Origin: Porphyra umbilicalis
Lineage: Eukaryota; Rhodophyta; Bangiophyceae; Bangiales; Bangiaceae
NCBI GenBank assembly: GCA_002049455.2
Contig: KV918771.1
Coordinates: forward strand, 310,001-374,000
DNA: 64,000 bases
Reading direction: 5' to 3'
The notes under the pieces were generated by a model that was not told the DNA's origin, searched no databases, and saw only the letters and a list, made by a program, of their open reading frames with translations. The position numbers were made by a program, and so were the translations under genes. Below are positions 1,355-54,304 of the stretch, piece by piece. Within the stretch, counting starts at the first letter, position 1; each line of letters begins with the position of its first letter.

Positions 1355-1695
1355 GACAAGACACTGCGGGTGTGGGACGTGGATGCTGGGACCCTCTTGG
1401 CTGTTCTGGACGGGAAGTCCCAGTGGACATCGAGTTTTTTTCGGAAAAGCATTGCGTTCCCTGCATAGAACCCTCCCTGGGGAGCTGCGGGAGTGCGATG
1501 TGTGTGGTTGGTGGTGCTTCCTTTGCCGGGTTTGTCGACTATGATGGCAGGTGTGCACTCGTTGGCGATCATGGTCGGAGTCTTCGGTTTTTTGGTGCTC
1601 CGCCTCGGACGACTGTGGTGTGCTGTGTTTCGCCGAGTTGTGTCGTGTTCGGAACGCACCATGGCGGTGTTCATGTGGGCTGCTTCTTCTCTTAG
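1355..1695 (+). pseudogene. 3'-terminal fragment of the WD40 NLR gene
   Basis: Translation matches the C-terminus of the intact gene at 24130-29184: the end of the 13th WD40 repeat and the roughly 93-residue terminal blade, ending with the same Cys-Phe-Phe-Ser stop. Everything upstream (PH-like, helical, NB-ARC and twelve repeats) is missing because the inverted duplication began within the last repeat. Two extra T residues in a homopolymer shift the frame relative to the intact copy near the upstream edge. With no promoter or upstream exons it is a truncated copy, but its transcript, if any, would be antisense to the intact gene's 3' end. Confidence 0.9.
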
Positions 1696-1708
1696 ATAGC
1701 CTGCTAAT

Positions 1709-4700
1709 TTGTTTTCTCTCTCTAGACGGGCCAAACCGCGCGCCACCGCGCTGAGCTTGTGGGGTTTTCGCGCGCGGGGTGCTGATACGGCTGGTTTCAA
1801 CTGCCGTCTGCCTCTCTGCCTCCCGGCTGCAGGAGCGCTGCTCGCCACGCGGGGCCGATGCGCGCACGTTCAGCCTCTGCCCTACAACTGCGGTGGGGCT
1901 GCCTGCCAACACACGCAAGAGGTGCAAAATGGACACGAGGGCACCCGCGTGGGACACAGCGAGCTCCACAAACGCGAAAGGGACCGCCCCGTGCTCGCCG
2001 CCCGCCGCTGGAACCGACACCACTGGGCGCACGTCACCCCCACGGCACACGCGAGAACAGAAACGGTTCCGTTGAGCCCATCGTCCCCCGCTGCCAGGCC
2101 AGCCGCCGCCGCCAGAGGCGGCGCACCCGCCATGTCCGGGCTCTGTGATCGGGAGGAGTGGCCAACAGCCGCTCCGCCACCCAGGTGCGAATCAGGGGTC
2201 GAGGAGGGGAAGAGGACGCGCCCCAGCCCCGCTGCCCCCTGGCCGCCGCCGCGGCCGCGGCGGCCACACCCGCGGTGCCCGCCCGGAGCAGCAACGGAAG
2301 CAGGCTCGACGTACGTCGCCCGACCGCCGCGGGTGGGCAGCCCGCCGCCGCTGCCGCCGCCGCCGATGCCGCCTGTGCCCAGCGGCGGGCGGTCTGATGA
2401 CGCAGACACCACGTGCAGGAGGGGGGACAGGAGCGGCGCGGGGAGCGCCCAGCAACCAGCACCGCGGGGGGTGGCGGTGAAGCCCGAGCCCCCGCTACCC
2501 CCCCACCCACCGACACCGCCCACGCCACCTGGGCTACGGCGACGCCGAGGCGCCCGACCGTCGCCCACGGAGGGGAGGCAAGCGGGGCAGCCGGCGTGGC
2601 CGCCGCTGAGGGCTGTGCAGGATGGACGCGCCGCCGCCGCCGCCGCCGTCCCCGCCATACCCGATCCGCTGTGTCAGCCACGCGAGGGGGCGGGCGGGCC
2701 CACGCCGACAGCACCTGCGACACGCTTGTTCCCACCAGGCGCCCCCACCGTCGACACCGCCGCCGCCGCCATGGCCGCCCGGCGAGCAGGCGAGCGCCCC
2801 GCCACAACGGTGCACGCCGACGGCAGTGTTGGCAACGCAGAGGCTGACGCTGCTCGGAGACGTCGCGGGCCAGACACGGCCCGCAGGCGGCCGCCACTCA
2901 TGCCGGCGCCTGCTCCCACCCGCCATGCGTCGACGGCGGTGGCACAGGTGGCGGCAGCGTCTGCGGCGGTGGGCCACCGTTGCCGCCGCCGCGACCCACG
3001 CCGGTGCGCCCGACCGCAGCGGCCTACCCCGCACGGAGGCTCCGCCACCCGTCGAGCCGCCGCCACCGTCGCCGCCCCGCGCGCAGCGCGTGCGCGGCCG
3101 CTCGGCGCAGCGGCGACAGCGGCGGCGGCTGCCCCGACCGCCGGGGTGTGGTCCGCTGGAGCGCCGCCGCCCGACACCCTGCGGCAGCCGCGGCGGCCAC
3201 GCGACGCGGCCGCGGTGGGGTCGACCGCCGCTCGCGCCGCGCGGGCGCGGTGCAGGTGAGCCTCCCGGTGCGACGGCGCGGGCGGCACCGCCGCCGACTG
3301 CGAGGAGCGGCGGAGGGGGAGCACCAGCGCCCGCATCGGCCGTGGGCGCAACGTCCCGAGGGGGTTCCCTCCCGCCCAGCCGCACGGCGCACGGTCGCCA
3401 CCGCCGCGCTGCCACCCCCGACGCACGGGCGGGGTGCGGCTTCCACGCGCCGCCCACGCACGGGAGCGCGTTTGCTCCCAGACGGCAGCGAGGCGGTCGG
3501 CGGACCGTGTCTCCACCCCAATCCCCCGCCCGATTAACGGCACCGGGCGGGGGCGGCGGCGCGTGCATGGACTTCGGCCTCCCGCACAGTGGGAAGGGAA
3601 ACAGGGTGCTGTGCAGGTAGGGACCACCACCTGATCGCGGCACAAACCGTGCAAGGGAGCGCGGCCGCCAATCTTGGGGTGCGCGGTGCCGGCGGTCACA
3701 CCCAACGGCAGCCGCGCGGGATTCACCCGCTCGCGACAGGTGCCGCCGCTTACCGTCATGTGCGCCGCAACGACCCCGCAAGCCCAACCGCACGGCGTCC
3801 CGCCCGTCACCCCCGCCACTTGGGGTCGTGGCGGCGGCGGCGTAGACGCCCCCGCCCCCCAGCGACGCTGCCGCCGGCCGACCGCCGGTCTGACTGCGGC
3901 GGGTGTGGGCGGCCGACGCGCTCACCAGCCATGCTGCGCCCGCCCACACGCTGCGGCTGCGGGCGCGGGCGCCACCGCCGTCGCCGCTCTGGTCGTCGTT
4001 GCCGTCGCGCCGAGTCGCCCCCAGCACGACAGCGCCGTCCCCCTACCCCCCCCCAATCCCGCAGCCCCCCCACACCCCACCCCCCCGCCAGCACAACAGG
4101 CGCAGCGTCCGCCACCGCTCCGCGTCGTCACGGTGGCGGTGGCGACGCCACCCGCCGTCAGCGACGTTGCCACCAGACAACCACCAACATTGGCGCGGGG
4201 GGTGGCGGCGACCGACGTGCCCGCCGGCAGGGCGGCCCCCATCCCCCCACGGCGGCTGCGGGTGTGGGCGCCGCGCCCGCCGCCGCCACCCCGTGCCGCG
4301 TCGGCACGGCACGCCCGCCCTCCCAGGCGCGGCGCTTATCCCCCCCCGCTCCCACCCGCCGTCAACCGCCACGCGTAGTGGGCACAGCCGCCGTCGTCGC
4401 CGCAGCCACAGCCCCCGTGGCGGCAGCCGCCGGGGGGTCCACGCGACCACACGGGAAGGACGGGGGGAAGAGGGGGGCGGCGGGGCGGCGGCGGCGGCGG
4501 GAGGGTCCCTTCAGCCAAGGCGGCGTGGCGTGGCCACGACGCCGCCCCCGCAGGCGCCATCCTCGACGGCACCCGCCGACCACACGGGGGGCCGATGCGG
4601 CGACGGCGCCGCATCGAGGGAGCGCCGGGAGAGGAGGAAACGGACCGACCGCCGCCATGGCCCGCCGGGCGTCCAGCCTCCCCCACGCGGCATGCCACTG

Positions 4701-5009
4701 ACGGCCAGCCGCGCGGTACTCGTGGCTACGGCCGCCCGTCACAGGCTGCGCTGGCGGCGGCCAGATGCGCCACCCGGTGACGTTGCCGGCAAAGCGGCAA
4801 GGCGGGCGGAGCGGGTAGGGAGGGGCGGCGCGAGCGGGCGCCAAGCGGCCGCGGAGAAGGCCGGCGACAGGGCGGCCGGCAGCGACGGCCGGGGGGCAGG
4901 CGTCACGCGGGAGTGTCGCGGTCGCGACGACTACGGTCGAGGAGACCCGACATCCGCCGCAACGCCATCGAGCCAGGAAAAAGCCAGCTGCGTGCCGCCT
5001 TTGGCTTGA
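1709..5009. other. GC-rich low-complexity block, left arm
   Basis: About 3.3 kb dominated by GCC/CGG-type triplets, Pro/Arg/Ala-rich in every frame, with long overlapping open frames on both strands (for example 1709-3259 plus, 3903-5009 plus, 2534-4027 minus). Such overlap is expected from GC richness alone because stop codons are AT-rich. The plus frame 1709-3259 is open in both arms with about ten residue differences, so a 516-residue Ala/Pro/Arg-rich protein is possible but unsupported by any domain. Confidence 0.6.
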
Positions 5010-6496
5010 GGCGCTGAGAAGCTAAGGGTTCGGACGTGGAACGAGGGCGGGAATGGAGCTCGTTAAATGGGCTTTCCATTTGATGTAGTTCCTCCTTCTG
5101 AATGGATCTTAAGATAAGTTCGTGCGAATACCTTGGCCTGAGCTGGCATAACTGTCTGACATGCTCTCAGTAAATACACAACGCCCGTGTCAAAGGAGCA
5201 CACCTGCATTAAGTGATTATTTAGTGAATAACAACCAGGCAGATTTTAATGTGTACTTAATACAAATGGGCTCCTGCTTGATTTTAATTCTATGACCCAT
5301 TGGAGGTAACCCCCCTCGTTTAGAGATGTAATGATTTTCAGGTGCAGCTGTGGGTAGGACATCAGCAGAGCTGACAGGAATGCGCTTCGAGGTGATGGCC
5401 TTGTCATCCACCCCCTCCTTCCAAACGTTTCCAGCATTGGGAATAATCCCCACCGTCAGAAAGTGGCACTGTTCTACCACTACGACCATGATAGTGCAGC
5501 GGCACGCCGGGCCTACTCTCTTTCGTGCTCACATTCCGGACTGCGTGATGGCTCAAGCCATCCTCTTTTTCTGCTTGGACGAGCTGTTCGTGCCACTATG
5601 CTGCCCGCTACGTACGAGAATGCATGCCGGTGGATCTGCCCCCCCTCCACCTTGAACTGTATCGACCACCTCACTCGCGCAAAGCACAGCGGCACATTCT
5701 TCCGGCCTCTCCAGTCCATGACCTGAAAATAAACGCCCTCGGTGACATCTGAGACCTCCGCTCTCAAAGTATTGCTGATCCGCGAATTTCGTCCTTGGGG
5801 ACCGAGACCGACTTGCAAACAGACTCTGTACCAATCAGATGACCCCCTGAGACTGACTTGGGGCCGCAGATTGCTTAATTGTGCCCACACGGTCTGGAAA
5901 CCCACATCGGCACTTCTGTTTATTCGCCGTTCACGCAATAAAACAGTGGAAAATCTCAAGATCTCACCTGGAACGCCTGCTGCGCGTCAAGACATGCAGA
6001 TCGAGGGGAAGGAAACAGTGAGTTCTCCTTAATCCAAGGTCGTCGCACCCGATCCAGGCATTCTATTGGCCTTGGGACCTTCTTACTGTCGTTTTAGAAT
6101 GCTCTTATTCACAGTCAGTCTCTGTCTCTGTCCTCCAGGACATAAATCGGGAATCAGCAATGCCATCGACACTGCACTGCGCCACACCGCCGGAGAGCCC
6201 CGTAGACAGTGCACCCCGCCTCACGACCCTTTCCATCCAGATTCTTTCGCTATGAACACTATCGCGAACCGTACGGGCCAGCAAGAGCTCCCCATGGCGT
6301 TCAACTAGCTACGAGACACCCGACCACACGTACCAACATTCCCAGTTCAAAAAAAACGTTTGCGAAACTTTCAGGGGCTGCCGAAGGAACGAAAAGGATG
6401 TGTTGTTTGGTCTCAAAAAGTACTCCCACAACGCGCTCAAGCTCGCAAAAGAAGTTAAAAACGGTCTTCACCACGTTTGTAGATACCCTGACCTAG
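5010..6496. other. Moderate-GC arm segment with unplaced ORFs
   Basis: Base composition drops sharply after the GC-rich block. Several modest open frames are kept in both arms. The minus frame 5513-5959 (148 codons; mirror 19866-20312 plus, two residue differences) has ordinary-looking composition, and 5217-5489 minus (mirror 20336-20608) is identical in both arms. None matches a family I recognise. An A-run near 6350 differs by one base between arms and shifts the small plus frame 6209-6496. I cannot say which, if any, are genes. Confidence 0.35.
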
Positions 6497-6541
6497 TGTC
6501 TATTCTACCACGCCGTGGGATCAATTGATCACAGCTTGTAT
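6497..6541. repeat. piggyBac left terminal and subterminal repeat
   Basis: The first 15 bases are the inverted complement of the last 15 of the element. They are followed by GGGATCAATTGATCAC, which reappears beside the right end. Confidence 0.85.
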
Positions 6542-6990
6542 CATTTGATCCCATCCCCAAATCTTCGATTCCGGCCAGCCTACATATGTAAGCGGCCAGT
6601 GTACGGTGTCGCCTGCGCTTCTCGACGTCGACTTGCAACCTCAGCCGACTCGAGCGGCTCGCACTCAATATCAGTTTGATGGCAACATCCACGAGAAAGG
6701 TTCTGCATGCGCGCTCTAACAAAAACACACGAGTAGCATCGGTCCTCGACTCCCCGAAGTGGACCGCCCCCGGTTGCTCGAACGTGCCCCCTCGCCCCCG
6801 CCGCCAATCACCCATGCCGTGTGCCGTCGAGTTACACCTGCTGCTAGACGCTTCCGACCTCGAGAGTCGTATTGACAGCCTCAGTGCAAGATAGGAACAG
6901 AATACAGTGACCTACCCATTCGTCTACCCCCCTTCCCCCCCCTCCTCCCCTGGCCCGACAAATGCCTCAGACACGCGGGGCGACCAAGAA

Positions 6991-9342
6991 TCACATGACT
7001 GCGTCGTGCGCAGAAAGCACATGAGATGCAAAGAAGTTGCGCCCCGTCTTGGCCCCACACACGAACATCTCGCGGCCACTATCAGGTTGACGGCACTCAG
7101 AGCAGACCAGCGTGCTTGTTTGGGTGCTGCACACGCAACAGCGGCGTTGCGCCAAAAATACCCCCGCACCACCCGCCGATGGATGACGACGCTTGGTCGT
7201 CGGGGTCAGATGCACGCCTAAACCATATCCCAACGGTGGCGTGGGATTAGTGTCACCCGTGGCGGCACGAGGCCGTGCGCCCGTTGAATCAAGAGTGTTG
7301 TCGATGAGACCGGATGCCAGGTCCTCGTAGAACGCCGCCTGCTTCAGGGAGGCCGGTCCTCGCGCCCCCGAATGCAGCAGCCATGCATCGACGATGCAAA
7401 CACCCAGCAAAGAGATATTCACTCTCTGTGACCATTCGTGCGTCCCAAGCTTATGCTCCAATCTCAGGTCGTCTTGTCGACACCGGTTGTGACGGTCAAT
7501 CCGCGCACAACAGCCGTAGAAAATCTCAGCCACCTCCAGCTGGGGCACCGGAACCGCGATACGCTCCGCCCCCCCGTTTAGTTGACGCCAGCGCAACTGC
7601 TCGCACGGGGCGCCGGGACGCGCAGAACCAGCGGTCGCGACAAAAAAGCGCCGGTTTCGGTCCGCCCACATCGATGCCATGAGGTCTGGCGCCCCCGACG
7701 TGTCTGTGTGCACCATCAAGACCCAGCTCCCACGCGCACGAAACTCTCGAGTCGCGAGAGAGGCCATCGGGAACCGGCGTTGGGCCGTCTTGACAACACC
7801 AATCAGCCGGAGGCCCACGCGCTTGAGTGCCAGGGCGGCCTCCACGCTTGAAGAGTAGGAGTCGGCACAGACGATGGGGTCTGACCCGGCCCACGGGCCA
7901 ACAAGGCGCTGTAATACGGCTGTGCCGTGCAGCACCTGGCTCTCTTCTGCGGACATGTTGGCGTGTTGGTCGGCAGCAGGTTTCACGAGATGAAGCCGCA
8001 GCATGATACCGCTCCGTGCGCAGGCCGCATTTTAGATCTCGCAGCCGTTTTCCGGCTTACGGTTGATGGCAACGTACATAGGTAGCCCAACCGAGATCCA
8101 CGGCCCACCGAGACCATACCACTTGATCATCGACTCATCGACACAGATGGTGTCTCCCGGGGTCACGTATGCCTCCCGGTGGACATTGATGGAGGAGATG
8201 AAATCGTTGATGAGCGCCCACCAGTAGCGCTCGCCGCCGCTCTGGCCGTTGGCAGGCACACCGCCAGCCGGTTGCTGACTGAATGTCAGCGCCGACCACA
8301 GGGCGTCAAAACGGTGACGGGGCATGCCGGTTCGGGCGCCAAACGCCGGCGCGGGCATGTGCATGGACCGCGGCGCCGTCGCTCACAGGTCCGCACGAGG
8401 CCCAAACTGGAGGCGCGTTGCGAGGATAAGGATACCAAAAAATTTTAGAATCTCCCCCGGCGACGTAGGCGGTAGGCGCCGACTCTCCAAATTGGAGGAC
8501 GTCAGTTCCGTCACACGCGTCAGCTGGTCTTGGGGGAACACAGCAAAGAAGTATTCAAGCGGGGTCCTCGTACGACCAAAACCGACGGGATCCCCGCCCT
8601 CGTTGATGATGTCGCCCCCGAGAGCCCGTACCGACCACGGCTTCCTTGGACCCGGTCACCCGATGGGCTGTAAAACCTGTTGGTCGCGACACTCAAATCC
8701 GTGCGCCAATGTCGGAGATGCATCCGTGTGGGAAGCCAATCCAGACGTTCATTGTCCGGCCGACACGAGCGGTGGCGCAGGAGGTGACCCGCCAGCGGAC
8801 GGTGGTGAGACAGGGGTGCCGACCGGTGGCGTCGGTGGGCCTCTCGGGAACTCAGAAGCCCGCAACAGCAGGGCAGGCCCACCACCCACCATAACTGGGA
8901 GCTCCGCTGCCGAGTGACACGGGCTGGTCGCTGGTTCCGCCATGTCAACACGAGACAGGTCCCGAGCCGAGTCGGTTGGCGCCGTCGTGAGAGGAGTCGT
9001 CGGTGGGGGTTGAGTGGGCGTGGAATGCCCGTCAACACTGGAATCAAGCGGGGGGGGGATGGCATTGGATGGTGGGGGGCGTGGCATATCGAGCGCGTCG
9101 CCAGAACGAATGCTCCGCAGACCCAGGGTCTTAACGGCTGTCTTTCCGAGGCACTCAAACCGAACCGTGATCGTCGTGGATGCACGGCCACCGATCTTGG
9201 ATCTCTTGACCTCCAAAACGACGCCGTTGGCCATCGCCTCGTCAGCTTGGCTGCCCAAAAGCAGCGAGCACGTGAATGCGGAGCGAATGTGCTTGACCCT
9301 GGCATGCACGCGGGACCCCACAAGCAATCGAGGGTCGCCCAT
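6991..9342 (-). pseudogene. piggyBac transposase (degenerate)
   Basis: Cut-and-paste transposase of the DDE_Tnp_1_7 family, read leftward from 9342. The N-terminal part (9342 to about 8750) is followed by a Pro/Thr-rich linker. The catalytic region spans about 8560-7250 and shows the three family acidic motifs: VDESM (around 8110), VCADSY (around 7860) and ARIDRHNR (around 7490). The C-terminus has a Cys/His cluster (CCVCS, VCSEC, then His-rich end; about 7140-7000) typical of the family's zinc finger. The frame is interrupted by at least two premature stops (near 8390 and 8033) and by one frame change between about 8750 and 8556, so it is not expected to be active. The two stops look like C-to-T or G-to-A changes. 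All three catalytic Asp are still readable, so decay is recent. Confidence 0.85.
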
Positions 9343-9911
9343 GGTGGGACACGGCTGTCACACGAGGGGGCTAGCGCGTGGAGGAGTTTGGGGGGGGAGC
9401 AATGAAAGGGAAGGCACAGAGAAAGAGATGGAGTGCGGTGCGCGTGAAGCGGGCGATGCTCGGAGCGCAATTTCCTTCCCTCGAGAAAGGCATACCGCAT
9501 GTGACACGCCCGCACCAGGCCTGCGAAACGGCAAAGGGTGGGGAGGCGCACGGGCGAGGGGCAGGGTGGTTGAGCGCTCCCATGGCAAGGAAAAGCGCGC
9601 CTGTCACGGGTGTGGTGGGCTGTAAAACGCGGATGCACGGAGGCACGCCTTCGGCTGAGGTCCGGGGAAGAGTGCCTCCTCACTCTCTCTGTTGCTGCGC
9701 GGCGGGCCTTGCAAGCAGCACCCACGGCACTCCGCCTCTGAGGCCTCCAGACGCACGACAAGCATTTACACTGAAGGGGCTACCACTCAGCAGCCACATA
9801 CACTGAGAGGTCTTCCTCCTGTCCCAAAGCTAAACAGCCACGGCTGAGCTCGATTCTGGCGTCAGAATCCAAATCAAACGAGCGTTTTCTGCGCGGTCGC
9901 GTACTCAATAG

Positions 9912-9963
9912 TGGGATCATTTGATCCCATTGGGATCAATTGATCACAGTGGTAGAATAGACA
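9912..9963. repeat. piggyBac right terminal and subterminal repeat
   Basis: Contains the palindrome GGGATCATTTGATCCC, then GGGATCAATTGATCAC, then the 15-base inverted terminal repeat ending at the CTAG junction. Confidence 0.85.
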
Positions 9964-10850
9964 CTAGAGGCCAGGAAATTTGCTATAGATTTCGCGTTCG
10001 AATATGCAATCGTGGGATTGAATGCGTAATCGGGGTCGAGGTTCCCCCTTGGCACAGCATTCCATCGCAGTGGTGCATATCGTGATTTCACGCGCAAAGT
10101 TTGCGGCAAGTCGGTAGCAACGCACGCCGCAAGCCGGTAGCTACCCACGCGGCAAGCCAGTAGCCGCGCCCCTGACAGGAGGTGGCAGCGGTGCAGATTT
10201 GGCGGGGCAGCGGCGGCGCCCCAGTGGGCGGGCGGCGACGGCGGCCTCGCGAGGGGACGGCGCTGGCTCCCCCTCGGGAAGGCGGTGGCGGTCAGCGGCA
10301 CGACCTCCCCGCGGGTGCGGCGCCGCCTCCTCGTAGCTGGGCGCTGGACGGCAGATGTTCCAATGTCTATGGGCTCTCAGCGCATGCTCGACTCTGTGCG
10401 GCCTGCACCGTTTCCAACATCTCGCACCATGTCGCCCAGCTTTCCCATGGCGTCACTGCCTTTATTGCCCACAGAGGTGCGGCGGCTCTTGGTCGCCCCG
10501 TCGTGTTCAAGACCGCTTGCATCTCCGTGCTTCTGCCTTACGTCGGCACCCACGGTCCGCTTGATGCCTGTGTCACGCTCTCGCCCCCGCGATGTCTCCC
10601 ACTGTGTCAATGTGGGCGCCAAGACGCACGCTGCACGGCCGGACTTCCCCATACGGCGGGCTTCGTATGAGGACGCTAGTGCCAACATGGACGGCTTTGG
10701 GGACAAGGGAGACCTGCGGGGGGGGCAGAAGCAACGGGGCGGTACCCGCAAGAAGGGGGGCAGTCCGGTCGGCACGCGATGCTTTACGCGCGGGAAGCTC
10801 TCGACCGGGTGCTGCAAGGCCATTGAGAGGCCTGTGGCCTTTTACGCCAC
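9964..10850. repeat. Giant inverted duplication, left arm, inner part
   Basis: Continuation of the left arm beyond the transposon, reverse complement of 18444-19330 (coordinate sum about 29294). Between 10105 and 10172 there are nearly three copies of a 23-bp tandem unit (GCAAGCCGGTAGCTACCCAC and variants). The mirror arm has an open frame here (18449-19216 plus); in this arm that frame is interrupted. No recognised domain. Confidence 0.9.
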
Positions 10851-24129: not shown

Positions 24130-27100
24130 CTAAGAGAAGAAGCAGCCCACATGAACACCGCCATGGTGCGTTCCGAACACGACACAACTCGGCGAAACAC
24201 AGCACACCACAGTCGTCCGAGGCGGAGCACCAAAAAACCGAAGACTCCGACCATGATCGCCAACGAGTGCACACCTGCCATCATAGTCGACAAACCCGGC
24301 AAAGGAAGCACCACCAACCACACACATCGCACTCCCGCAGCTCCCCAGGGAGGGTTCTATGCAGGGAACGGAATGCTTTCCCGAAAAACTCGATGTCCAC
24401 TGGGACTTTCCGTCCAGAACAGCCAAGAAGGTCCCAGCATCCACGTCCCACACTCGCAGTGTCTTGTCCAACGACCCCGACACCACCCGCGCTGCGCCGC
24501 CGCCCCCACCGCCGTCCACCACCGCCACGCAGCTCACCGTGCGGGTGTGGCCCGTAAGGGTGGCTACACATGTGCCATTGGCCAAGTCCCACACCCGCAG
24601 CGTCTTGTCGTAAGACCCCGACACCACCCGCGACGCGCCGCCGCCCCCGCCGCCGTCCACCACCGCCACGCACGTTACCCAGTGCGTGTGGCCCGTGAAA
24701 GTGGTCACGCACGTGCCGTTGGCCACGTCCCACACCCGCAGCGACTTGTCGTCCGACCCCGACACCACCCGCGACGCGCCGCCGCCCCCGCCGCCGTCCA
24801 CCACCGCCACGCACTCCACCCAGTTGGTGTGGCCCGTCAGGGTGCTCACGCAAGTGCCGTTGGCCACGTCCCACACTCGCAGCGTCTTGTCGCCCGACCC
24901 CGACACCACCCGCGCCGCGTCGCCGCCCCCGCCGCCCTCCACCACCGCCACGCACGTCACCCAGTGAGTGTGGCCCGTGAGGGTGGTCACGCACGTGCCG
25001 CTGGCCACGTCCCACACCCGCAGCGTCTTGTCCAACGACCCCGACACCACCCGGGACGCACCGCCGCCCCCGCCGCCGTCCATCACCGCCACGCAGCTCA
25101 CAGTGCGGGTGTGGCCCGTAAGGGTGGTCAAGCACCTGCCTTTGGCCACGTCCCACACCCTGAGCGTGTCGTCGCCCGACCCTGACACCACCCGCGCCGC
25201 GCCGCCGCCCCCGCCGCCGTCCACCACCGCCACGCAGCTCACCGCGCCGGTGTGGCCCGTGAGGGTGGTCACGCACGTGCCGTTGGCTACGTCCCACACC
25301 CGCAGCGTCTTGTCGCGCGACCCCGACACCACCCGCGCCGCGCCGCCGACCCCGCCGCCCTCCACCACCGTCACGCACTCGACCCAGTCGGTGTGACCAG
25401 TGCGGGTGCTCACGCACGTGCCGTTGGCAAAGTCCCACACCCGCAGCGTGTTGTCGCGCGACCCCGACACCACCCGCGCCGCGCCGACGCCCCAACCGCC
25501 GTCCACCACCGCCACGCAGCTCACCGTGCGAGTGTGGCCCGTGAGTGTGGTCGCGCACGTGCCGTTGGCCAAGTCCCACACCCGCAGCGTCTGGTCGTGT
25601 GAACCCGACACCACCTGCGCCGCGCCGCCGCCCCCGCCGCCGTCCACAGCCGCAACGCAGCTCACCGTGCGAGTGTGGCCCGTGAGGGTGGTCACGCACG
25701 TGCCGTTGGCCACGTCCCACACCCGCAGCGTCTTGTCCAACGACCCCGACACCACACGCACCGCGCCGACGCCCCCGCCGCCGTCCACTACGGTCATGCA
25801 GGTCACCCAGTGGGTGTGGCCCGTGAGGGTGGTCACGCATGTGCCACTGGCCAAGTCCCACACCCGCAGCGTGTTGTCGCGCGACCCCGACACCACCCGC
25901 GACGCGCCGCCGCCCCCGCCGCCGTCCACCACCGCCACGCATCTCACCGCGCCTGTGTGGCCCGTAAGGGTGGCTACACATGTGCCGTTGGCCACGTCCC
26001 ACACCCGCAGCATCCTGTCGTCCGACCCCGATACCACCCGCGCCGCGCCACCACCCCCGCCGCCGTCCACCACCGCCACGCACGTCACCCACGCGGTGTG
26101 CCCCGTGAGGGTGGTCACGCACGTGCCGTTGGCCACGTCCCACACCCGCAGCGTCTTGTCGCCCGACCCCGACACCACCCGCGCCACGTCGCCGCCCCCG
26201 CCGCCGTCCAGCACCGCCACGCACGTCACCGTGCGGGTGTGGCCCGACAGCACGGCCATGCGGGACCCGGTCTCCTCGTCCATGACCAAAAGACGGCCAC
26301 CGACTTGTGGAAGGACCACTTGCGTGGCGCCTCCCGTCGTAACTGTGCACATACACCTGACGAAGCCATCGCTGCGAAAGACGCGACGCTCAGCCCGTGG
26401 CGCCAGGCCATCACCCGCGAGCAGCGCCAACGCTGGTTTTTCCAGAAACAAGCGGGCAGAGTGGTGGAGTCGCACCAAAAGCGGCTTTTCAGCCGCCTGA
26501 ACAGCAGGCTGCAAACGGGGGCCAAACCGCTCCGCCACCTCAAATGCCGCCTGCTGCAGCCGCACCGACAGCGACAAATCCTGATCGGCCAGCGCGCCCT
26601 CCACCACGGTAGCCACGCGGTCAAGCACGTCCACTTTGGCGTGTCGACACTCCGCGCGATAGAGACCACAGGTGCCGCCACTTACCTCCACCCGCCACGC
26701 GATGTACGGCATGGCGAGCAGGAGCAGTTTCAGCTCCTCTTCCGCGCCGCCGCCACGGAGCAGGCGCGGGAGGGCGCGCTCAATGAAGTTATCCATTGGC
26801 AGCTTCCACAGCTCCCGGACCGCCCCACTCGTTTTGCTGCCGCCGGTCGGCTCGGTGTCAATGCTGTGTCGCCGACAGTACCCCGACAAGAGCTTGCGGT
26901 TGAAGTCCTCCCGATCCGCCGCGGTCAGCGTGACGTCGCTACCCAAAAAGTCAACCACCAAGTCGTGTAGGCTCAAGCGCAGCGGCTCGCTGTGGCCATC
27001 GACGTCGCCGCCGCCTTGGAGCGTCACCAGCGAGCACGCCTGCAGCTTGCGCGCAATTCTTTCGACTGCAGGCATCTTTGCTCCCCACAATGCCGCCAGC

Positions 27101-29184
27101 CCCGCCGCGGGCACCTCCTCCTTATAGGTCATGACGCACAGCGCCAGAAACTGCTTCCAGCACTGATTGCGGTGCTCTTTGTTAATCCCCAGCGCCCGAC
27201 GGCTGATGCGCAGGCATGCCCAGAGAGAGACGTACGACTCGCTACCTGTGAAGGACTTGGACAGCAGGCTATCGCGGTCGTCTTGCACCTGTTTGATGGA
27301 TGCCTTCCACCCGCCCTCGCGCACCAGCGCGCCCATAACGGCTAGGGCGAGCGCCAAGCCGCTGCAGAGCTCCACAGCTTGCGTGACCAGGCTCTCAGAC
27401 CTGTCGACACGATCCACGCCGTCAACCTTGGCGTGGTTGCAGAGCACCCCAGCCGCAGCCGCACCTGAGAGCACATCAACGGACACAGCTTGGATGTCGG
27501 GCCACCGGTCGGTAAAGTCCGTCTGCCGCGTCGAGAATAGCAGAGATGAGCCCGCTCGTCCGTGTAGCGCCTGGTAAAAGCAGTCGACCCACGTAGAGTC
27601 CCACACATCGTCGACCACCACCAGGCAGCGCTTGCCCTTGAGCGCCTCATGCAGGCGTTTCACGGCCATGTCCAGATCAACGGCCTCGACCTTGTCGCGC
27701 GTCAGGGTTGTGGCAAGCGCGCAGATGGACTTGTGCACTTGCTCCCGGGAGATAGCTTTGCTCAGCTGCACCCAGTGGACGCCGTCAGAGAAGCGCTCCC
27801 GTCCTTCCTCCTCCGCAACCAAGCGGTGGGCGACCAACGTGCAGCAGACGGTCTTGCCCACCCCCCCCATGCCTTGCGCGCCGATCGCCACACACGACGC
27901 GTTGCCAGACTCCAAGAGCGCAGCGTACAGCGCCGTGGCAGGGTACCCTGAGTCGTCCCACTGGGTGAACACGTTGGGCGGCAGCGGGGGGAGGTCCTTC
28001 TTGGCAGCTTGTATCGCCGCTCGTTTCGGTGCGTCCTTCAAATCGCGCAGCTGCGCAATCGGCAGCAGGCTCATCACTCGGCGGGCTTCCTTGTCGATCT
28101 GCGACATGCGTGCCTCGAGCGCCTGCCCCACGTTCAAGCCCCGCGACACGGCCGAGCACGCCCGCCACCACCGCTGGCGGCGGGACCACATGAGGTGGTG
28201 CATCTCGCCGGCGGCCTCCTCCACGTCGGCGACAAGGGAGCTCAGCCGCTCGAGCAGTCCCCCGACGTTCACAACGCTGCTGACCTCCAAGTCCTTGACC
28301 ACGGGCAACAAGTACTGCTTGCACGCATCAATCACGTCTTGAAGCGCCGCCGACGCGTCGCCAACCGCACCGTCCACCTGCCCCGCAGCCACAAACACCT
28401 TCAACCCAAAGCTTAGCGCCGCGAGTGCCGTGCCTACGAGTGGACCAAAGGCAACCGCGAGGTTGTGTACCTCTGGGTTGGCAATTGACGTCGCCACCCC
28501 TGCACCATCCGCCAATGACCCGTCCGCTAGCGCGCGGCGGATGCCTTGGGTACAACTCGAGAGCGCTGTCAACCGGGTTGCGTCCCCCGCCCCGGCTGGC
28601 GTCGGGCCAACAGCGTCGCCGCTGCCGCTGCCGCCACCCACCACCCCCACGTGCCGCGCCCACACCATCCACAGCGGCGCAGTGCGCATGCGTAGCTGCC
28701 GCTGCCACGCGCGCGCGTCCTCCTCAGAGGCCGCGCAAAAGCGCAGCAGCGGGTCCGGATCCCTGCTCAGCGACACCTGTACCACCCAACGCCCCGCAAT
28801 ACTCGACCAGTCCCCAGTTGCCTGTGCGCGAAAGACGTCCACCAACGAGGCGGCGGCGCCCTCGCCATGGTTGCGCGGCAGCGGGCAAAACCGGTACCCC
28901 GTGCCGGGACGGTCCATCGGTGGCATGTCACCTGGGGAGGGCAGCGTGCACCCCGCATCACCCGGCTGCTCCAGGCGGTAGTGCACGCCGCAATGCACCC
29001 ACACCGTTGCTGGTATCAGCTTCACGCTCCCCGCCGTGCAGGTGACGCAGCCCAGCCGCCCAGCTGGCTCGATCAGCTGCACCCGTCCAGTGCACGGGCG
29101 CATCAGCGCCTTGAGCCCCTCCTCGTCGTCCGCCAGAGGCAAGTCATAGTCCGTAGGCGCAGTCCTGGACCCCGCAGCCGCCAT
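24130..29184 (-). CDS. NLR-like STAND NTPase with WD40 repeat array
   Basis: Uninterrupted frame of 1,684 codons from ATG 29184 (context GGTGCCATGG). The frame stays open to an upstream ATG at 29499, but that extension is low-complexity. Domain order: residues 30-170 PH-like, ending in the typical amphipathic helix (ARAWQRQL); 235-385 helical bundle with a hydrophobic first helix (FGPLVGTALAAL), like four-helix cell-death modules; 430-750 NB-ARC, with P-loop GMGGVGKT (438-445), kinase-2 VVVDDVWD, sensor SSLLFSTRQ, a GLPL-like SGLALALA and LHD in place of MHD (739-741); 981-1591 thirteen 47-residue WD40 repeats; 1592-1684 a final divergent blade, so 14 blades or two propellers. Such proteins are ATP-switch receptors that oligomerise on ligand sensing by the WD40 part; the ligand is unknown. 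The 3' end lies within the inverted duplication. Function in immunity or self-recognition is inference. Confidence 0.9.
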   Translation of the reverse strand: MAAAGSRTAPTDYDLPLADDEEGLKALMRPCTGRVQLIEPAGRLGCVTCTAGSVKLIPATVWVHCGVHYRLEQPGDAGCTLPSPGDMPPMDRPGTGYRFCPLPRNHGEGAAASLVDVFRAQATGDWSSIAGRWVVQVSLSRDPDPLLRFCAASEEDARAWQRQLRMRTAPLWMVWARHVGVVGGGSGSGDAVGPTPAGAGDATRLTALSSCTQGIRRALADGSLADGAGVATSIANPEVHNLAVAFGPLVGTALAALSFGLKVFVAAGQVDGAVGDASAALQDVIDACKQYLLPVVKDLEVSSVVNVGGLLERLSSLVADVEEAAGEMHHLMWSRRQRWWRACSAVSRGLNVGQALEARMSQIDKEARRVMSLLPIAQLRDLKDAPKRAAIQAAKKDLPPLPPNVFTQWDDSGYPATALYAALLESGNASCVAIGAQGMGGVGKTVCCTLVAHRLVAEEEGRERFSDGVHWVQLSKAISREQVHKSICALATTLTRDKVEAVDLDMAVKRLHEALKGKRCLVVVDDVWDSTWVDCFYQALHGRAGSSLLFSTRQTDFTDRWPDIQAVSVDVLSGAAAAGVLCNHAKVDGVDRVDRSESLVTQAVELCSGLALALAVMGALVREGGWKASIKQVQDDRDSLLSKSFTGSESYVSLWACLRISRRALGINKEHRNQCWKQFLALCVMTYKEEVPAAGLAALWGAKMPAVERIARKLQACSLVTLQGGGDVDGHSEPLRLSLHDLVVDFLGSDVTLTAADREDFNRKLLSGYCRRHSIDTEPTGGSKTSGAVRELWKLPMDNFIERALPRLLRGGGAEEELKLLLLAMPYIAWRVEVSGGTCGLYRAECRHAKVDVLDRVATVVEGALADQDLSLSVRLQQAAFEVAERFGPRLQPAVQAAEKPLLVRLHHSARLFLEKPALALLAGDGLAPRAERRVFRSDGFVRCMCTVTTGGATQVVLPQVGGRLLVMDEETGSRMAVLSGHTRTVTCVAVLDGGGGGDVARVVSGSGDKTLRVWDVANGTCVTTLTGHTAWVTCVAVVDGGGGGGAARVVSGSDDRMLRVWDVANGTCVATLTGHTGAVRCVAVVDGGGGGGASRVVSGSRDNTLRVWDLASGTCVTTLTGHTHWVTCMTVVDGGGGVGAVRVVSGSLDKTLRVWDVANGTCVTTLTGHTRTVSCVAAVDGGGGGGAAQVVSGSHDQTLRVWDLANGTCATTLTGHTRTVSCVAVVDGGWGVGAARVVSGSRDNTLRVWDFANGTCVSTRTGHTDWVECVTVVEGGGVGGAARVVSGSRDKTLRVWDVANGTCVTTLTGHTGAVSCVAVVDGGGGGGAARVVSGSGDDTLRVWDVAKGRCLTTLTGHTRTVSCVAVMDGGGGGGASRVVSGSLDKTLRVWDVASGTCVTTLTGHTHWVTCVAVVEGGGGGDAARVVSGSGDKTLRVWDVANGTCVSTLTGHTNWVECVAVVDGGGGGGASRVVSGSDDKSLRVWDVANGTCVTTFTGHTHWVTCVAVVDGGGGGGASRVVSGSYDKTLRVWDLANGTCVATLTGHTRTVSCVAVVDGGGGGGAARVVSGSLDKTLRVWDVDAGTFLAVLDGKSQWTSSFSGKHSVPCIEPSLGSCGSAMCVVGGASFAGFVDYDGRCALVGDHGRSLRFFGAPPRTTVVCCVSPSCVVFGTHHGGVHVGCFFS
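24412..26244 (-). repeat. WD40-coding tandem array, 13 x 141 bp
   Basis: Thirteen contiguous 141-bp units, all in frame and of identical length, encoding the pattern GHT-xx-V-x-C, a Gly-rich loop, RVVSGS-x-D-x-TLRVWD and ANGTCVTTLT. Units are nearly identical except at a few codons: the two residues after GHT (RT, AW, GA, HW, DW, NW), the residue after the next Val (T, R, S, E), the residue after SGS (G, D, R, L, H, Y) and the one after the following Asp (K, R, N, Q, D). Near-identity elsewhere implies homogenisation by unequal exchange or conversion. Confidence 0.95.
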
Positions 29185-30645
29185 GGCACCACCGCAACGC
29201 GAGAGCTCGACGCGGGGGATGGGCAAGGCGCCGACCCCTCGCACGGGCGCTTGCGGCGGCCACGCCGGGACGTACAGGCGGGAAGTACGGGCGCGGCGCC
29301 GGCGGCCGTACCTGCCCACCGCAGCGCCCAACGGAACAAGCCAACGCCGTCGCGCAGCAGGCCAAACGGGCGCACAGCAGCGCCGCTGTCGCTGCGTGTG
29401 GAAAACCCCGCAGCCCCGCAAGCACAGCGGGGCAGCGTCCCCCTCCCCCCGGCCGCCACGGACAGCGCCGGTGCCGCGGCCACTCGAGTCCCTCCCCACG
29501 CCTCCCGCGAGTGTGGCGGCGGCCCGGTGGGCACGGCGCGCGGAGGCGACCTCGGCGTGTGGCGGCAGGGCCCGCGCAGAGCGTCGTCTCGGCGCTCTGT
29601 TATCCGTCTGTCACCAGTTCTTGACACTTGCACCAGTTCTTAGCAAATCGGGACATGAAATCGGGTTCCTGGGGATGCTCCGAAACCGCCTACGGTGCAG
29701 TTCACTCTTTTTTATAAAATAAACAAAGCATATCAGCACGGTCTGAGTCACACCACTGGACTCTTCAACTCATCAGCTCTGCAACGATGCCTTGTGTGCC
29801 TCAAACGGAGCACTCCTGGACGAGAACCGCGTGTTTCCCTGGAAAATAGCAGGAAAAAGTACATCGCCGGACCGGTGCAATTCCGCGTCCACAGAGCCCT
29901 CCCAGTGATTTCCGAGCGGAACGTCTTGCTCCCGCCCGCTTTCGCCGCAGGGATCCGGGTGTCGAGTCTCTCCGATGCACCCCAGAGCCCCGTAGTGGCT
30001 GTATGGGCCGATTTCTCGGCCAAGGTCGACGAACAGGTGTGGTCAGCACATGAGAGAGGCTCTGGAGCCCGAGTTTCGCGGTCGCATTGTACTGGGCGAG
30101 TTTTTCAGGGCTGCTCATCGCCCCCCCCATCCCCCGCCCTTCGTGTCACCACAGCACAACCCTGTCCCAGTTCCCTGCGTACCAGCACAGGCTTACTCAT
30201 CACTTTATCGTCCATCTGATAGCCCCTGAGCCCCCCTAACCCACCTCCCCCCTTCCCATCCGCCCCCATTCCTCCCCCACCCGTGCGCCCCCCGTTCCCA
30301 TGTCTGTCATTGGCCCGCAGCCTTCCCCCCCCGCCTCCCCCCCTCCCTCCCCCCTGCTCTATCCTCGACCCCCGACCAAAGTCTTGTTTTAGCAACTCTC
30401 TGTGTCTCATGTCCGTAGAGGTTCTCAACAACTCATGTGCCCCTCGTCTGCGAAGCGTCTGGAGCTACACGCGCTCCCGTCACTGTCCACACAGCTCCTT
30501 CGTGTGTGAAGACCTGCGGGCACTTGTGAACTCCACGTGGCGCCTGGTGAACTCCACGTTGCGGCTGTGAACTCCACGTTGCGCCCCAGTGACCAAGTTC
30601 ACCGCAATGCTTGACAACTTTAACACTGGTACCGTCGGACTCGAG
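29185..30645. other. 5' flank of NLR gene and intergenic
   Basis: 29185-29600 is GC-rich and extends the NLR frame upstream, probably 5' UTR. 30120-30370 is a strongly pyrimidine-rich tract. Three tandem copies of a 20-21-bp unit (GTGAACTCCACGTTGCG and variants) lie at 30526-30590. No confident gene. Confidence 0.45.
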
Positions 30646-33115: not shown

Positions 33116-33406
33116 TCCGTGCTGCCGCACCGTGCACACACCCGACCCATCGACGTCGCGCCCATCGTTGTGACGCGTCCGGCCATTACCTGCATCGTCG
33201 GCCCCCCGCTACTCTGTTGCCCTGTTCCTCGTCCACGACGTGCCCGCTTCGCCCGCACGTTCCCTGTCGTCGGCTTGAGACGCACGATCCGCGCACCCGC
33301 CGCACTTTCTTTGCTACCCCACCACTCTTACGACCCCTATCCTTGTGTCCCGTGCTCCACCACCATTTGCCCGCGCTCGCCCGCGACCCTCCCCTCCGCT
33401 GCTGGC

Positions 33407-34933
33407 ATGGAAGCTGCCGAGACGGGGCTGTCCAGCGCTGCCTCTCTCCTGGCCGAGGAAGATGGCGCCGTCGTTTGCGCTGCGGTGCAATCCCACATGG
33501 GCCTGCTGATGCTGATTCGACGACGGTCGCGCGCCGCCCGCGGACACCGCCGTCGCCACTACCGCGGTTCTGTTCCTGGGCGTCGGCCCAACAAGCGGCG
33601 TGACTTTGCCGCTGGCCTGTTCAACATCCAGCGTGTCTACTTCGGGGTCAACGCGGAGCCGCCGATCTACGACGACCGCGATTTCGAGACGCGCTTCCGT
33701 GTGCCGCGCAGTGTGTTTCGGCGCATCTACCTGGCCGTCAAGGACGAGCCGTTCTTCCAGCAGCGCATCAACGCGACGGGTCGCCTGCAGGCGCACCCGC
33801 TGCAAAAGGTCGTGGCCGCCTTCCGCGTCATCGCGTACGGCGAGGCGGCCGACCGGTCGGACGAGTACGTGCGCCTTTCTCGCTCGACGGTGGCGCAGGC
33901 AACGAAGCTTCTCCTAGAATTCATCGTGCGGCGGTGGGCATCGACCTACCTACGCCGTCCCAACCAGTCGGAGCTCAAGTCTATGATGGCGCGCAACGCA
34001 GAGCGTGGCTTTCCCGGCTGTATGGGCTCGCTGGACTGTACCCACTGGGAGTGGCATCAGTGCCCGACGGGCATGGCGGGCGCGTACCAGAGCCGGAAGG
34101 GCTCGCGCGGCGTTGTCGTCGAGGCCGTATGCGACGAGGACCTGTGGATTTGGCACCTGTTTGTCGGTGCTCCCGGCAGTATGAACGACATCAACGTTTT
34201 GAACCAGTCGCCTCTCTACCTAGACGTCACGGCAGGCCGGTGGCCGCCGCGGGGCGTGACGTTTACCGTGAATGGGACCACCCGCACGCTACCTTACTAC
34301 CTAGTCGACGGCATCTACCCTCGCTACGCGTTCCTAGTGTCCCCCCACCCCATGCCTATGACCGACGAGGACAAGACGTTCAACCGGCTGCAGGAGGCCA
34401 TTCGCAAGGACGTTGAGCGGCTGTTTGGCGTTCTGACAAAGCGGTTTCACATCGCCTTGCACCCAGGACGGTACCGCTCCGTGAAGCAGCTGATCACCAC
34501 GTACAAGGCGGTCTGTATTTTGCACAACATGTGCGTGGAGAGCCGTCGAGACGGCTTTTTGAGCCGCCGCAGAGGGGGGACTAACGAGGGAGGGGGTGCG
34601 GGTGGTGAGGGTGAGGGTCCTGCAGGCGCGGCTGCTGCCGCCGCGGGGGGTCATGATGGGAACGACGGTGGGGCGGAGGATGGTGGCGCTGCTGCCGCCG
34701 GGGGACCTGCGCCTGGCGGCGGCGGCGCCGCCGGCCCGGCCGACGCTGTCGATGCTGCTAACCCGCCCCCCGCATTGAACGCTGTGGGGCAGCCGCCCGC
34801 GGGCGGAATGGTTGCTGTCTTTGATGCTTGGGGCGAGACTCGCAACCCCGCCGAACACGCGCAACTCCGTGCCGACCTGTCGGCGCACGTGTGGAGCGAC
34901 CGCGGCGAGCTGCTGGCACCCTATGTTTTCTAG
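33407..34933 (+). CDS. PIF/Harbinger transposase (Plant_tran type)
   Basis: 508 codons from ATG 33407, chosen over the upstream in-frame ATG at 33119 because sequence before it is low-complexity and the context (GGCATGG) is good. A basic N-terminus is followed by the helix-turn-helix-like segment (about 105-175) and the DDE nuclease: D210 in MGSLDCTHW, D261 in GSMNDINVL, E337 in DVERLFGVL, with LVDGIYP between. These motifs are characteristic of the plant-type Harbinger family, whose partner is a Myb-like protein, as found nearby. The C-terminal 100 residues are a Gly/Ala-rich linker plus a short conserved-looking tail. It cuts and rejoins DNA at TWA sites. No break was seen. Confidence 0.95.
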   Translation: MEAAETGLSSAASLLAEEDGAVVCAAVQSHMGLLMLIRRRSRAARGHRRRHYRGSVPGRRPNKRRDFAAGLFNIQRVYFGVNAEPPIYDDRDFETRFRVPRSVFRRIYLAVKDEPFFQQRINATGRLQAHPLQKVVAAFRVIAYGEAADRSDEYVRLSRSTVAQATKLLLEFIVRRWASTYLRRPNQSELKSMMARNAERGFPGCMGSLDCTHWEWHQCPTGMAGAYQSRKGSRGVVVEAVCDEDLWIWHLFVGAPGSMNDINVLNQSPLYLDVTAGRWPPRGVTFTVNGTTRTLPYYLVDGIYPRYAFLVSPHPMPMTDEDKTFNRLQEAIRKDVERLFGVLTKRFHIALHPGRYRSVKQLITTYKAVCILHNMCVESRRDGFLSRRRGGTNEGGGAGGEGEGPAGAAAAAAGGHDGNDGGAEDGGAAAAGGPAPGGGGAAGPADAVDAANPPPALNAVGQPPAGGMVAVFDAWGETRNPAEHAQLRADLSAHVWSDRGELLAPYVF

Positions 34934-48100: not shown

Positions 48101-48684
48101 CCTTTGCGTTCGTAAGCCCCCGACGGCTCACTCCCGTGGCCCTTGAGCGACTTACAGCGGGTACCGACCCCGGGGAGATAGTAACCCCCGGGCGAGCCAA
48201 GGAGAATTTCCTCCAGCGCCTTGACTCCCTTATCCCCCTAGTACGGGAGACCATGGAGAAGGCACAGGCCCGATACAAACGAGCATTCGACAAGCGCGTG
48301 CAGACTCGCCGCGAAGCCCTCCAAGTTGGAGACTGGGTATTCGTGAAGTCCCACGAGAACCAGGGGGGTAAGCTCGTCTTCAAGACACTGGGACCCTACC
48401 AGATCTTGAAGACCGACGGGCGTCGGCTTACCATCGAAAGTGACGATGGTATCCGGACCATCAATGGGAACCACGCCACCCGGGCCCCGGAACCACCCGA
48501 GGGGGACCCGGCGTGGGCACGGGCACTGGCCGCGTGGCGGGTCCCCTCCCTCCCCTCATCGGCCAGTAAATCGATTGAGGCTGTCTTCGACCGCTTTGTC
48601 GGACAGGGGTACGATGACCAGGAGCGACTCATGCTCAAGGTCAGGTGGTTCGGGTATGGTATACGCGTCCATTGGTCGGCTTGA
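45124..48684 (+). other. RT, RNase H, integrase region of the Ty3/gypsy fossil
   Basis: Reverse transcriptase (about 45880-46560, with the YLDD box near 46356), Ty3-type RNase H (about 46790-47080), integrase with an HHCC zinc domain (about 47470-47610), the DDE core (LLGPLP, SDNGPQF, GQVERFNK; about 47670-48010) and a C-terminal segment that begins a chromodomain-like fold near 48570. Order and motifs define Ty3/gypsy (metavirus-type). Confidence 0.92.
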
Positions 48685-53256: not shown

Positions 53257-53402
53257 TGCGGGCGGGCCTACCGCAGGGCAAGTCGATTATTCGCGACCCA
53301 GTTGGCAGAACCAGCAGGGTGGAGATTGACTGGCGCGGTTTTGAGGTTGTGGAGAAGCACCTGTGCGAGGCGGTTCCTTGTGCTGGGAAGCGCAACGAGT
53401 GA
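52740..53402 (+). CDS. Chimeric ORF: Ala-rich N-part plus kinase tail
   Basis: 220 codons. Residues up to about 172 are Ala/Arg-rich sequence from the GC block. The last 48 residues (from RAGLP) are the C-terminus of the kinase-like gene at 56872-57783, in its native frame and ending with the same AGKRNE and stop. The junction coincides with the left boundary of the second inverted duplication (53257). The tail differs from the intact gene at about five of 41 positions. The fusion is visible in the sequence; expression is unknown. Confidence 0.5.
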   Translation: MPHAVLGWRNTGRVRAAVSAPLRGGTPPAAAAPAEADAVEAADTDAEAVANVGVAVVQAAEAAAPAAAGTPPARRQARAPRAAATPRRRAAATPVAAAAATPAGWAAGKGRRMIRSRTARSVRLTRAVEGWGECVAGGWDGRVGARRVMCSLVPFSPQAYARGCSLRFAPSLMRAGLPQGKSIIRDPVGRTSRVEIDWRGFEVVEKHLCEAVPCAGKRNE

Positions 53403-54304
53403 AGTTGTGGTGGCTAGTGTGCATGGCGAGGGAGTTGATGAGGGGAGCCGCCGCCGCCGTCCCATGTGTGGGGCATTGTTCTGCTTCGTGCTTCTTTTCT
53501 TTTCATTGTGTTACGTCAGCGCCCAAGGGGTCACATCCTGCTCCATGCTGACCCCGTATGGATTGCACGCGGGTGCGAGGTGGAGGAATACGGCCTGCCC
53601 TGGGAGCTACAATGGACAACGCTTCGCTCTCGACCGCAATTGGCTTTACTCTCCGTTATCAATGTGGCCGGGGACATGTGCATCCGGCGGCCTCCGAGAT
53701 AGATGAGCAGCAGGAAGAAAAGAAAACGGGAAAACAGAGGGCGGCACTACGGTTGCAGCCGGTGGAAACAAACAAATCAAGCACGCAACGCGGCCAGTGC
53801 CGCTGCCCCGACACACACCACTTGAAGCTTACTCTCCGGGGAGGCTCTTGCGTCTGTTCGATGTCAGACCTCTTGGGCTACGCATCGTCCGCAGGAGGCG
53901 GTGGCGGTGGTGGAGGCGGTGGCGGCGGTGGCGCGTAGATTCTGGACGTTGAACAGTCGGTCTGATAGCAGTCCTCAAAAAACAGCTCGGTCGCCCAGGC
54001 TTGAGTCCTTGTGTTCCATAGCCCCTTGAAGTCCCGGCACATGATGACATGTGCGCAGCGTTGGCCCGGAAAGTGACGGACCGGCAAGCGTCAGGAAGAG
54101 CCTTGAGGGGAAAGAGGCGGGCCTGGCGAGGCACGCGGCGCCCGTTGTCGAAATAAGGTAAAGAAAATCTTGGTTGTCAAAAGGCGGGGGGCAGAGGGCA
54201 TGCAGCACACACAACCCACGTTGGCAGAGGTGAACGCGGTGGGGCGGGGGTCCGGCAGGTGTTGGCTGCGGACGATGGCCACGTTCAGCGTCGTCTGTAT
54301 CGGC
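53257..54304. repeat. Second inverted duplication, left arm
   Basis: Reverse complement of 55970-57017; paired coordinates sum to 110274 throughout, so there are no indels over 1,048 bp. It begins inside the kinase 3' end and continues into its downstream flank. Inner ORFs are identical between arms. Differences cluster at the kinase end. Confidence 0.95.

Follow-up and report, generated by a model that had tools for sequence, protein, structure and literature searches.

Within a window of 64,000 nucleotides from the red alga Porphyra umbilicalis (contig KV918771.1, positions 310,001 to 374,000), we analysed a minus-strand gene for an NLR-type protein in which an NB-ARC domain with an Apaf-1-like core is followed by an array of 13 similar WD40 repeats. 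The explanation that we favour, and consider likely, is that the product is an intracellular receptor, the WD40 sensor of which owes its homogeneity to recombination between repeats and experiences diversifying selection at four to five residues per repeat on one propeller face. The computations reveal the architecture, the homogenised array, an excess of replacement at specific sites, mixing of segments between repeats and turnover between close relatives. The same pattern recurs at three loci of the P. umbilicalis genome, in one gene of Pyropia yezoensis and in two related contigs. These genes probably represent a rapidly diversifying receptor class that is convergent with fungal receptors.

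The minus-strand translation contains 13 GHT starts spaced by exactly 47 residues, all in frame, from position 26244 down to 24412, which bears out the coordinates, frame and spacing of the 13 equal-length repeats proposed in an earlier, sequence-only reading of this DNA. Tandem Repeats Finder gives the array a score of 2537 (period 141, 12.8 copies, 0% indels), with the next-best tandem array within the window scoring 329. The repeats had been described as almost identical; they are indeed similar, but the wording is generous, because pairwise identity averages 78.7% for protein and 84.5% for DNA (DNA range 72-92%). The accompanying proposal, that variation falls mainly on five residues per repeat (positions 4, 5, 7, 28 and 30, hereafter the named sites), is right in that these have the five highest entropies among the 47 positions, the named set alone of 1,533,939 five-position sets reaching its own score; yet they hold 37% of all residue differences, and positions 21, 37, 39, 43 and 44 also vary, albeit less strongly. 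Together, the named sites form 12 distinct five-residue codes across the 13 repeats. A chance origin of the pattern was ruled out by the array score and the site statistics.

A search of the genome (83.8 Mb, 665 contigs) returned 41 NB-ARC matches, and the survey covered 19 further NB-ARC regions of these, mostly the strongest, together with one region that lacks an NB-ARC match. Of the 20 genes surveyed (window gene included), 17 have two or more matched WD40 repeats. Arrays are homogenised in three of the 17, with internal identities over all matched repeats of 0.79 (window), 0.80 and 0.84, and 14 have ordinary diverged repeats with internal identities of 0.36-0.47. The two further homogenised arrays, L039 (contig C78) and L040 (contig C40), were found after a search with a repeat probe; their repeats are mostly of 54 residues, the seven additional residues being located in a glycine-rich loop. 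The L040 gene is the same gene as P0028; the annotated protein BU14_0093s0020 is 100% identical over 1780 residues to a paralogue in this genome. Homogenised arrays from other sources are P0007, which lies on a 34-Mb contig of Pyropia yezoensis, and P0002 and P0003, from Joint Genome Institute (JGI) contigs. Our six-array test thus comprised the window, L039, L040, P0002, P0003 and P0007. Left out were seven proteins that have two or more matched repeats (internal identity 0.36-0.60), P0005 (0.64), and P0004 and P0022 (0.55 each), all for their lower internal identity; P0001, P0006 and P0023, for having too few matched repeats (2, 2 and 3, respectively); and P0028, as a duplicate. The window array has an internal identity of 0.79 versus 0.60-0.69 to the five other homogenised arrays, with values of 0.55-0.76 between arrays across all 15 pairs; identity is 90% each within P0007 and within ten repeats of L039. 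Three observations on individual loci were made during the survey. In L039, the repeat register is lost inside the last repeat, such that the gene end may be altered or misassembled. L057 (contig C571), a fragment near-identical to the opening repeats of the C40 array, has a broken frame and adjoins an unrelated enzyme-like frame, and is an allele, a pseudogene or an assembly fragment. At C8:206066-212798 there are five WD40-like stretches with 52-61% protein identity to the repeat probe and short frames, two of them with stops, which is possibly a decayed relative.

The named sites had been derived solely from the window, so that the other five arrays provide a separate test of them. Counting the named set, the sets that equal or exceed its score, out of the same 1,533,939, number 44 for L039, 26 for L040, 1 for P0002, 55 for P0003 and 3 for P0007. 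Four of the named sites (28, 4, 5 and 30) also lead in variability in P0034, with its internal identity of 0.60, and the named sites lead less clearly in P0035 and P0033. Weighing against selection as the cause, however, the named sites rank 3, 2, 4, 1 and 8 of 47 in variability in the 14 ordinary paralogues (95 repeats). The same sites are therefore generally variable, position alone is no proof, and part of the pattern is generic to WD40 repeats; hence, we dropped position statistics alone as proof of selection, and instead set replacement against synonymous change, both for the named sites and for further free positions.

This comparison employed a counting method with 1000 resamplings of the repeats, for the three arrays with DNA, and a set of ten comparison positions that vary freely in the diverged paralogues (entropy of 2.5 bits or more, versus 2.97 bits or more for the named sites). 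For the window, L039 and L040, respectively, the synonymous difference over all codons is 0.219, 0.097 and 0.147, and the replacement difference at the named sites is 0.510, 0.472 and 0.383, giving ratios (95% intervals) of 2.33 (1.73-3.31), 4.87 (3.38-7.06) and 2.60 (1.89-3.49). At the ten other free positions, the corresponding ratios are 0.69 (0.49-1.03), 0.09 (0.00-0.28) and 0.57 (0.40-0.74). When the named codons alone supply the synonymous change, the ratio of replacement to synonymous change (dN/dS) at the named sites is 2.80, 8.24 and 1.70. Neutral freedom would lead to a ratio of about 1, and the named sites lie above 1 and the other free sites do not, implying excess replacement at the named sites. 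Of the 3003 sets that can be drawn from the 15 free positions, the number that equal or beat the named five, which are counted too, ranges from 1 to 15 across the six arrays. The expectation of the sequence-only reading, that replacement would exceed synonymous change at these codons across the aligned repeats, is thus upheld by counting, with all three intervals above 1.

The arrays also carry signs of exchange between repeats. The four-gamete test is failed by 221 of 435 informative site pairs within repeats for the window, by 78 of 171 for L039 and by 213 of 561 for L040 (38-51%); thus, either exchange has mixed segments shorter than one repeat or identical changes have recurred. Within arrays, neighbouring repeats are no more alike than distant ones. 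Turnover is apparent from P0002 and P0003, which are 95.2% identical over the 673 residues before the array, and which have 18 repeats (14 distinct codes) and 13 repeats (13 distinct codes), respectively, with no code in common.

With respect to structure, the typical repeat in the array model has strands at residues 6-12, 22-27, 31-36 and 41-47, as read off repeat 1, which places sites 4 and 5 in the d-a loop, site 7 at the start of strand a, and sites 28 and 30 in the b-c turn. In passages of the study of the Podospora anserina receptors by Paoletti and colleagues (PMC1805685), the codons under selection lie at the top of the propeller, with the d-a loop holding codons 7 and 9 and the b-c turn holding codons 25 and 27. 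The proposed mapping of the variable sites to one propeller face is supported on the predicted model, in terms of loop and turn positions described as top face in HET-E, at a mean predicted local distance difference test (pLDDT) score of 63.8. By analogy with HET-E, the 13 repeats and at least one cryptic blade could form two propellers.

The features of the gene are collected in the table below. The reading frame at 24130-29499 (minus strand) has no internal stop on translation and is open upstream to a GTG at 29499; the Met was chosen as the start because the ENA protein P0001 begins there. P0001 is identical to the window protein at 978 of 980 residues before the array and at all 93 residues of the C-terminal tail. 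AlphaFold2 predicts seven strands and a C-terminal helix for the N-terminal domain, a topology that suggests a PH-like fold; Pfam and profile searches gave no significant Pfam or PDB sequence match for this domain, and nothing convincing for a PH domain, the best Pfam match (E 0.17, one of six members) being to an unrelated family. The N-terminus could not be assigned to any cell-death domain, with the 980-residue model having been compared by fold mainly over residues 395-908; at the level of sequence, Pfam up to E 1 matched no family in the first 395 residues, hence neither HET nor CARD. The helical region that follows has a pLDDT mostly below 50, so that helix content alone is suggested. 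The G....GK[ST] motif begins at residue 438 in P0001, the numbering of which is shared with the window protein. In the fold comparison, the nearest fold to the ATPase core is Apaf-1, with an alignment that includes the winged helix and HD2. The cryptic blade has four predicted strands (model residues 18-52) at a pLDDT of about 41-76.

Table. Positions of the NB-ARC-WD40 gene, its parts and the array-edge duplicate in the window (NBD, nucleotide-binding domain).
Feature	Position	Strand	Remarks
NLR-type gene, 1684 residues, one open frame	24130..29184	-	Met start at 29184
N-terminal domain, predicted PH-like topology	28681..29094	-	~residues 31-168; AlphaFold2 secondary structure
Helical region between N-terminal domain and NB-ARC	28003..28584	-	~residues 201-394
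NB-ARC nucleotide-binding domain	27274..27933	-	residues 418-637; Pfam E 5.9e-28
Apaf-1-like core: NBD, HD1, winged helix, HD2	26419..28005	-	residues 394-922
Cryptic, diverged blade directly before repeat 1	26245..26349	-	array model
13 WD40 repeats of 47 residues	24412..26244	-	hypervariable positions 4, 5, 7, 28, 30
C-terminal tail, 93 residues	24133..24411	-	possibly more cryptic blades (low-confidence strands)
Inverted 5.1-kb duplicate of 24468-19329	1355..6497	+	99.5% identical

The pattern could in principle reflect ordinary repeat turnover without diversifying selection, with a GC-rich array being homogenised and the named sites merely being the least constrained positions of a WD40 repeat. 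We consider this unlikely, although, beyond the ranks in the diverged paralogues, several results weigh against selection. In L040, the excess loses significance once the named codons themselves serve as the source of synonymous change (difference 0.120, interval -0.028 to 0.249), and these codons carry raised synonymous change in this array (0.257 versus 0.147 for all codons). The ten comparison positions have somewhat less freedom than the named sites, and their interval for the window just touches 1; when the comparison is restricted to the only three other positions that are equally free, the permutation test reaches its floor of 1/56 in four arrays, and gives 4/56 in L039 and 3/56 in P0003. 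Position 7 is invariant in L039, the repeats are not mutually independent, the evidence comes from counting and not from a likelihood codon model, and the mean pLDDT of the array model is 63.8. The whole repeats of P0002 and P0003 are 0.740 identical between the arrays versus 0.760 and 0.767 within them, so homogenisation since their split was weak, though the codes differ; the two lie on JGI contigs (8.4 and 5.7 kb) and may represent paralogues, not alleles. P0001, with two repeats on a 5.9-kb contig, may be a collapsed assembly and not a reliable allele, and was set aside as evidence for a genuine short allele. Turnover alone would nevertheless leave unconstrained sites near a ratio of 1, which is exceeded at the named sites of all three arrays and not reached at the other free positions, and it sits poorly with the few sets among the 15 free positions that rival the named five. 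Site-directed hypermutation of the named codons, instead of selection, is barely credible. These codons differ by several bases, with third positions mostly C or G, and the rise in synonymous change in L040 is in the expected direction; however, such a process would lift synonymous change at the named codons generally, and no clear rise is seen in the window (0.250 versus 0.219) or in L039 (0.085 versus 0.097), for which reason hypermutation is not favoured.

It is also improbable that the protein is a conserved Apaf-1-like cell-death adaptor with an internal ligand, in which repeat number and sequence drift and nothing foreign is recognised. The core does align best with Apaf-1, the WD40 repeats of which sense cytochrome c according to passages of PMC7159879, but 41 NB-ARC matches, three homogenised loci among 17 and complete turnover of the codes between close relatives would be unusual for an adaptor. 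That the repeats are misassembled, such that their number and mixing are not biological, seems very improbable, even given that short-read assemblies of such arrays are described as unreliable for Podospora in passages of PMC12222747, and that the two repeats of P0001 resemble fusions, of repeat 1 with 9 and of repeat 10 with 13. Frame and length are kept in all 13 repeats of the window, the same pattern is present at two more loci of the genome and in P0007 on its 34-Mb contig, and misassembly alone would not produce replacement excess at particular codons. The proposal of the sequence-only reading, i.e. a convergent, rapidly diversifying recognition receptor, therefore gains from the replacement excess, the mixing and the full code turnover between 95%-identical relatives, and is tempered by a positional pattern that is partly generic in the 14 paralogues.

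How a diversifying receptor of this type might work can be outlined as follows. The 13 repeats and the cryptic blades would fold into two propellers, the top faces of which would bind a variable ligand, perhaps a protein of a pathogen or a marker of self. Apaf-1 and the fungal receptors suggest, by analogy, that the propellers may keep the switch closed or sense the ligand. Ligand binding would open the Apaf-1-like ATPase switch, the protein would then oligomerise, and the N-terminal part would trigger a defence or cell-death response. New codes would arise by unequal exchange and gene conversion among repeats, with selection retaining useful ones. More broadly, we lean towards the view, with some reserve, that the Bangiales keep a dedicated NB-ARC receptor class, the specificity of which is continually rewritten by shuffling of WD40 repeats and by selection at nearly the same face residues as in HET-E, HET-D and HET-R. 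The red-algal and fungal lineages are more than 1 billion years apart; if this view is correct, WD40 geometry has yielded the same renewable recognition code twice, and the face residues may be readable as a code for ligand specificity. Recognition of pathogens, or of other individuals, by red algae is to our knowledge poorly understood, and a receptor class with the signature of a changing recognition surface provides named genes and residues in a seaweed group that is also grown as a crop. If the convergence is real, a homogenised WD40 array on a STAND ATPase that varies at these four to five positions would, in any organism, be a candidate non-self receptor.

The duplicate listed in the table spans the sequence from codon 29 of repeat 13 onwards, the tail and the 3' flank, the remaining array being absent; its break inside the last WD40 repeat may reflect recent rearrangement of the array edge, or may stem from the assembly. 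Within this duplicate lies a 3467-bp insertion (6498-9964) that is bounded by inverted terminal repeats (~56 bp, 79% identical) and contains a minus-strand frame at 6991-8004 matching the transposase family DDE_Tnp_1_7 (E 3.5e-13); the insertion is absent at the corresponding place, 19328/19329. Elsewhere in the window there is an inverted repeat (53257-54304 and 55970-57017; 1048 bp, 99.4% identical, arms 1.7 kb apart), a plus-strand retroelement polyprotein frame at 45124-48684 (reverse transcriptase, RNase H and integrase), and plus-strand frames with DDE transposase domains at 33119-34933 and 59064-60332.

Among known systems, the window protein resembles the Apaf-1-like STAND ATPases in having NB-ARC with an Apaf-1-like HD1, winged helix and HD2; Pfam gives no match to an N-terminal CARD in its first 395 residues. 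The WD40 repeats of Apaf-1 and Dark are diverged and bind a conserved self ligand. PDB entry 2ymu, a highly repetitive WD40 propeller, is likened by its title only. The red-algal NB-ARC-WD40 proteins of Pyropia, Chondrus and Porphyra share the architecture and lineage of the window protein: NB-ARC precedes WD40, and the NB-ARC part is homologous to Bangiales proteins, with identities of 44% and 42% to Pyropia yezoensis I4F81_003904 and I4F81_005506, respectively. In Chondrus crispus, 58 of 61 NB-encoding genes are of the NB-WD40 type, according to a passage of PMC7145615. Passages of PMC6928737 already mention P. umbilicalis proteins with a nucleotide-binding site (NBS) and WD40 repeats, and, of the seven Pyropia yezoensis NB-ARC+WD40 transcripts among those listed there, three rise more than 1.5-fold in red rot; such induction fits a defence role without proving it. 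The passages on red-algal NB-WD40 proteins in these two papers contain no mention of homogenised arrays or hypervariable sites, and the main texts of the Neoporphyra haitanensis and Pyropia yezoensis genome papers none of NB-ARC, NLR or WD40. Among the papers listed by our literature searches, none deals with hypervariable WD40 sites in red algae, which does not imply absence from print. Red-algal NB-WD40 proteins are known already, as are hypervariable homogenised WD40 arrays in fungi; what would be new is a diversifying homogenised array joined to an Apaf-1-like core in a red alga, a combination not met in the searches made.

The most instructive comparison is with HET-E, HET-D and HET-R of Podospora anserina (NACHT-WD40, HNWD), for which passages of PMC1805685 describe WD40 repeats that are homogenised and in which codons 7, 9, 25 and 27 are under diversifying selection, in pairs that flank the conserved codons 8 and 26. 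By our own reading, these codons correspond to positions 5, 7, 28 and 30 of the alga, which flank V6 and D29, because in both cases the pairs flank a conserved V and a conserved D; the spacing of the conserved codons (18 from 8 to 26 in Podospora, 23 from 6 to 29 in the alga) differs by the five extra residues of the algal repeat, i.e. 47 versus the 42 given in passages of PMC12222747. The same source gives a repeat similarity of 80-100% in Podospora, and describes reactive HET-E alleles as modelled with two seven-blade propellers that form a clamp, made up of 11 near-identical and three cryptic blades. The alga shares with the HNWD family highly similar WD40 repeats in concerted evolution, though the similarity in the window lies below the Podospora range, and, for the five sites taken jointly and by counting, diversifying selection at codon pairs flanking the conserved V and D. 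A wider survey of fungal NLRs, as excerpted from PMC4986451, reports concerted evolution and positive selection at binding-surface sites for WD, ANK and TPR repeats with high internal conservation; relative to its cut-off of more than 85% identity, the window array (79%) falls below, and P0007 and ten L039 repeats (90%) lie above. The alga differs from HNWD in its NB-ARC/Apaf-1-like core, Pfam up to E 1 listing no NACHT in the window protein and the NB-ARC match being strong instead, as the sequence-only reading had anticipated; in the first 395 residues, in which Pfam finds no HET domain; and in its repeats, which are of 47 or 54 residues with a glycine-rich a-b loop and which, unlike those of Podospora, vary additionally at position 4. 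Since both NACHT and, by Pfam, HET are missing, this Porphyra umbilicalis protein is no member of the HNWD family, in agreement with the placement of the gene in that reading; outside that family, it nonetheless appears to work like the HET-E, HET-D and HET-R receptors.
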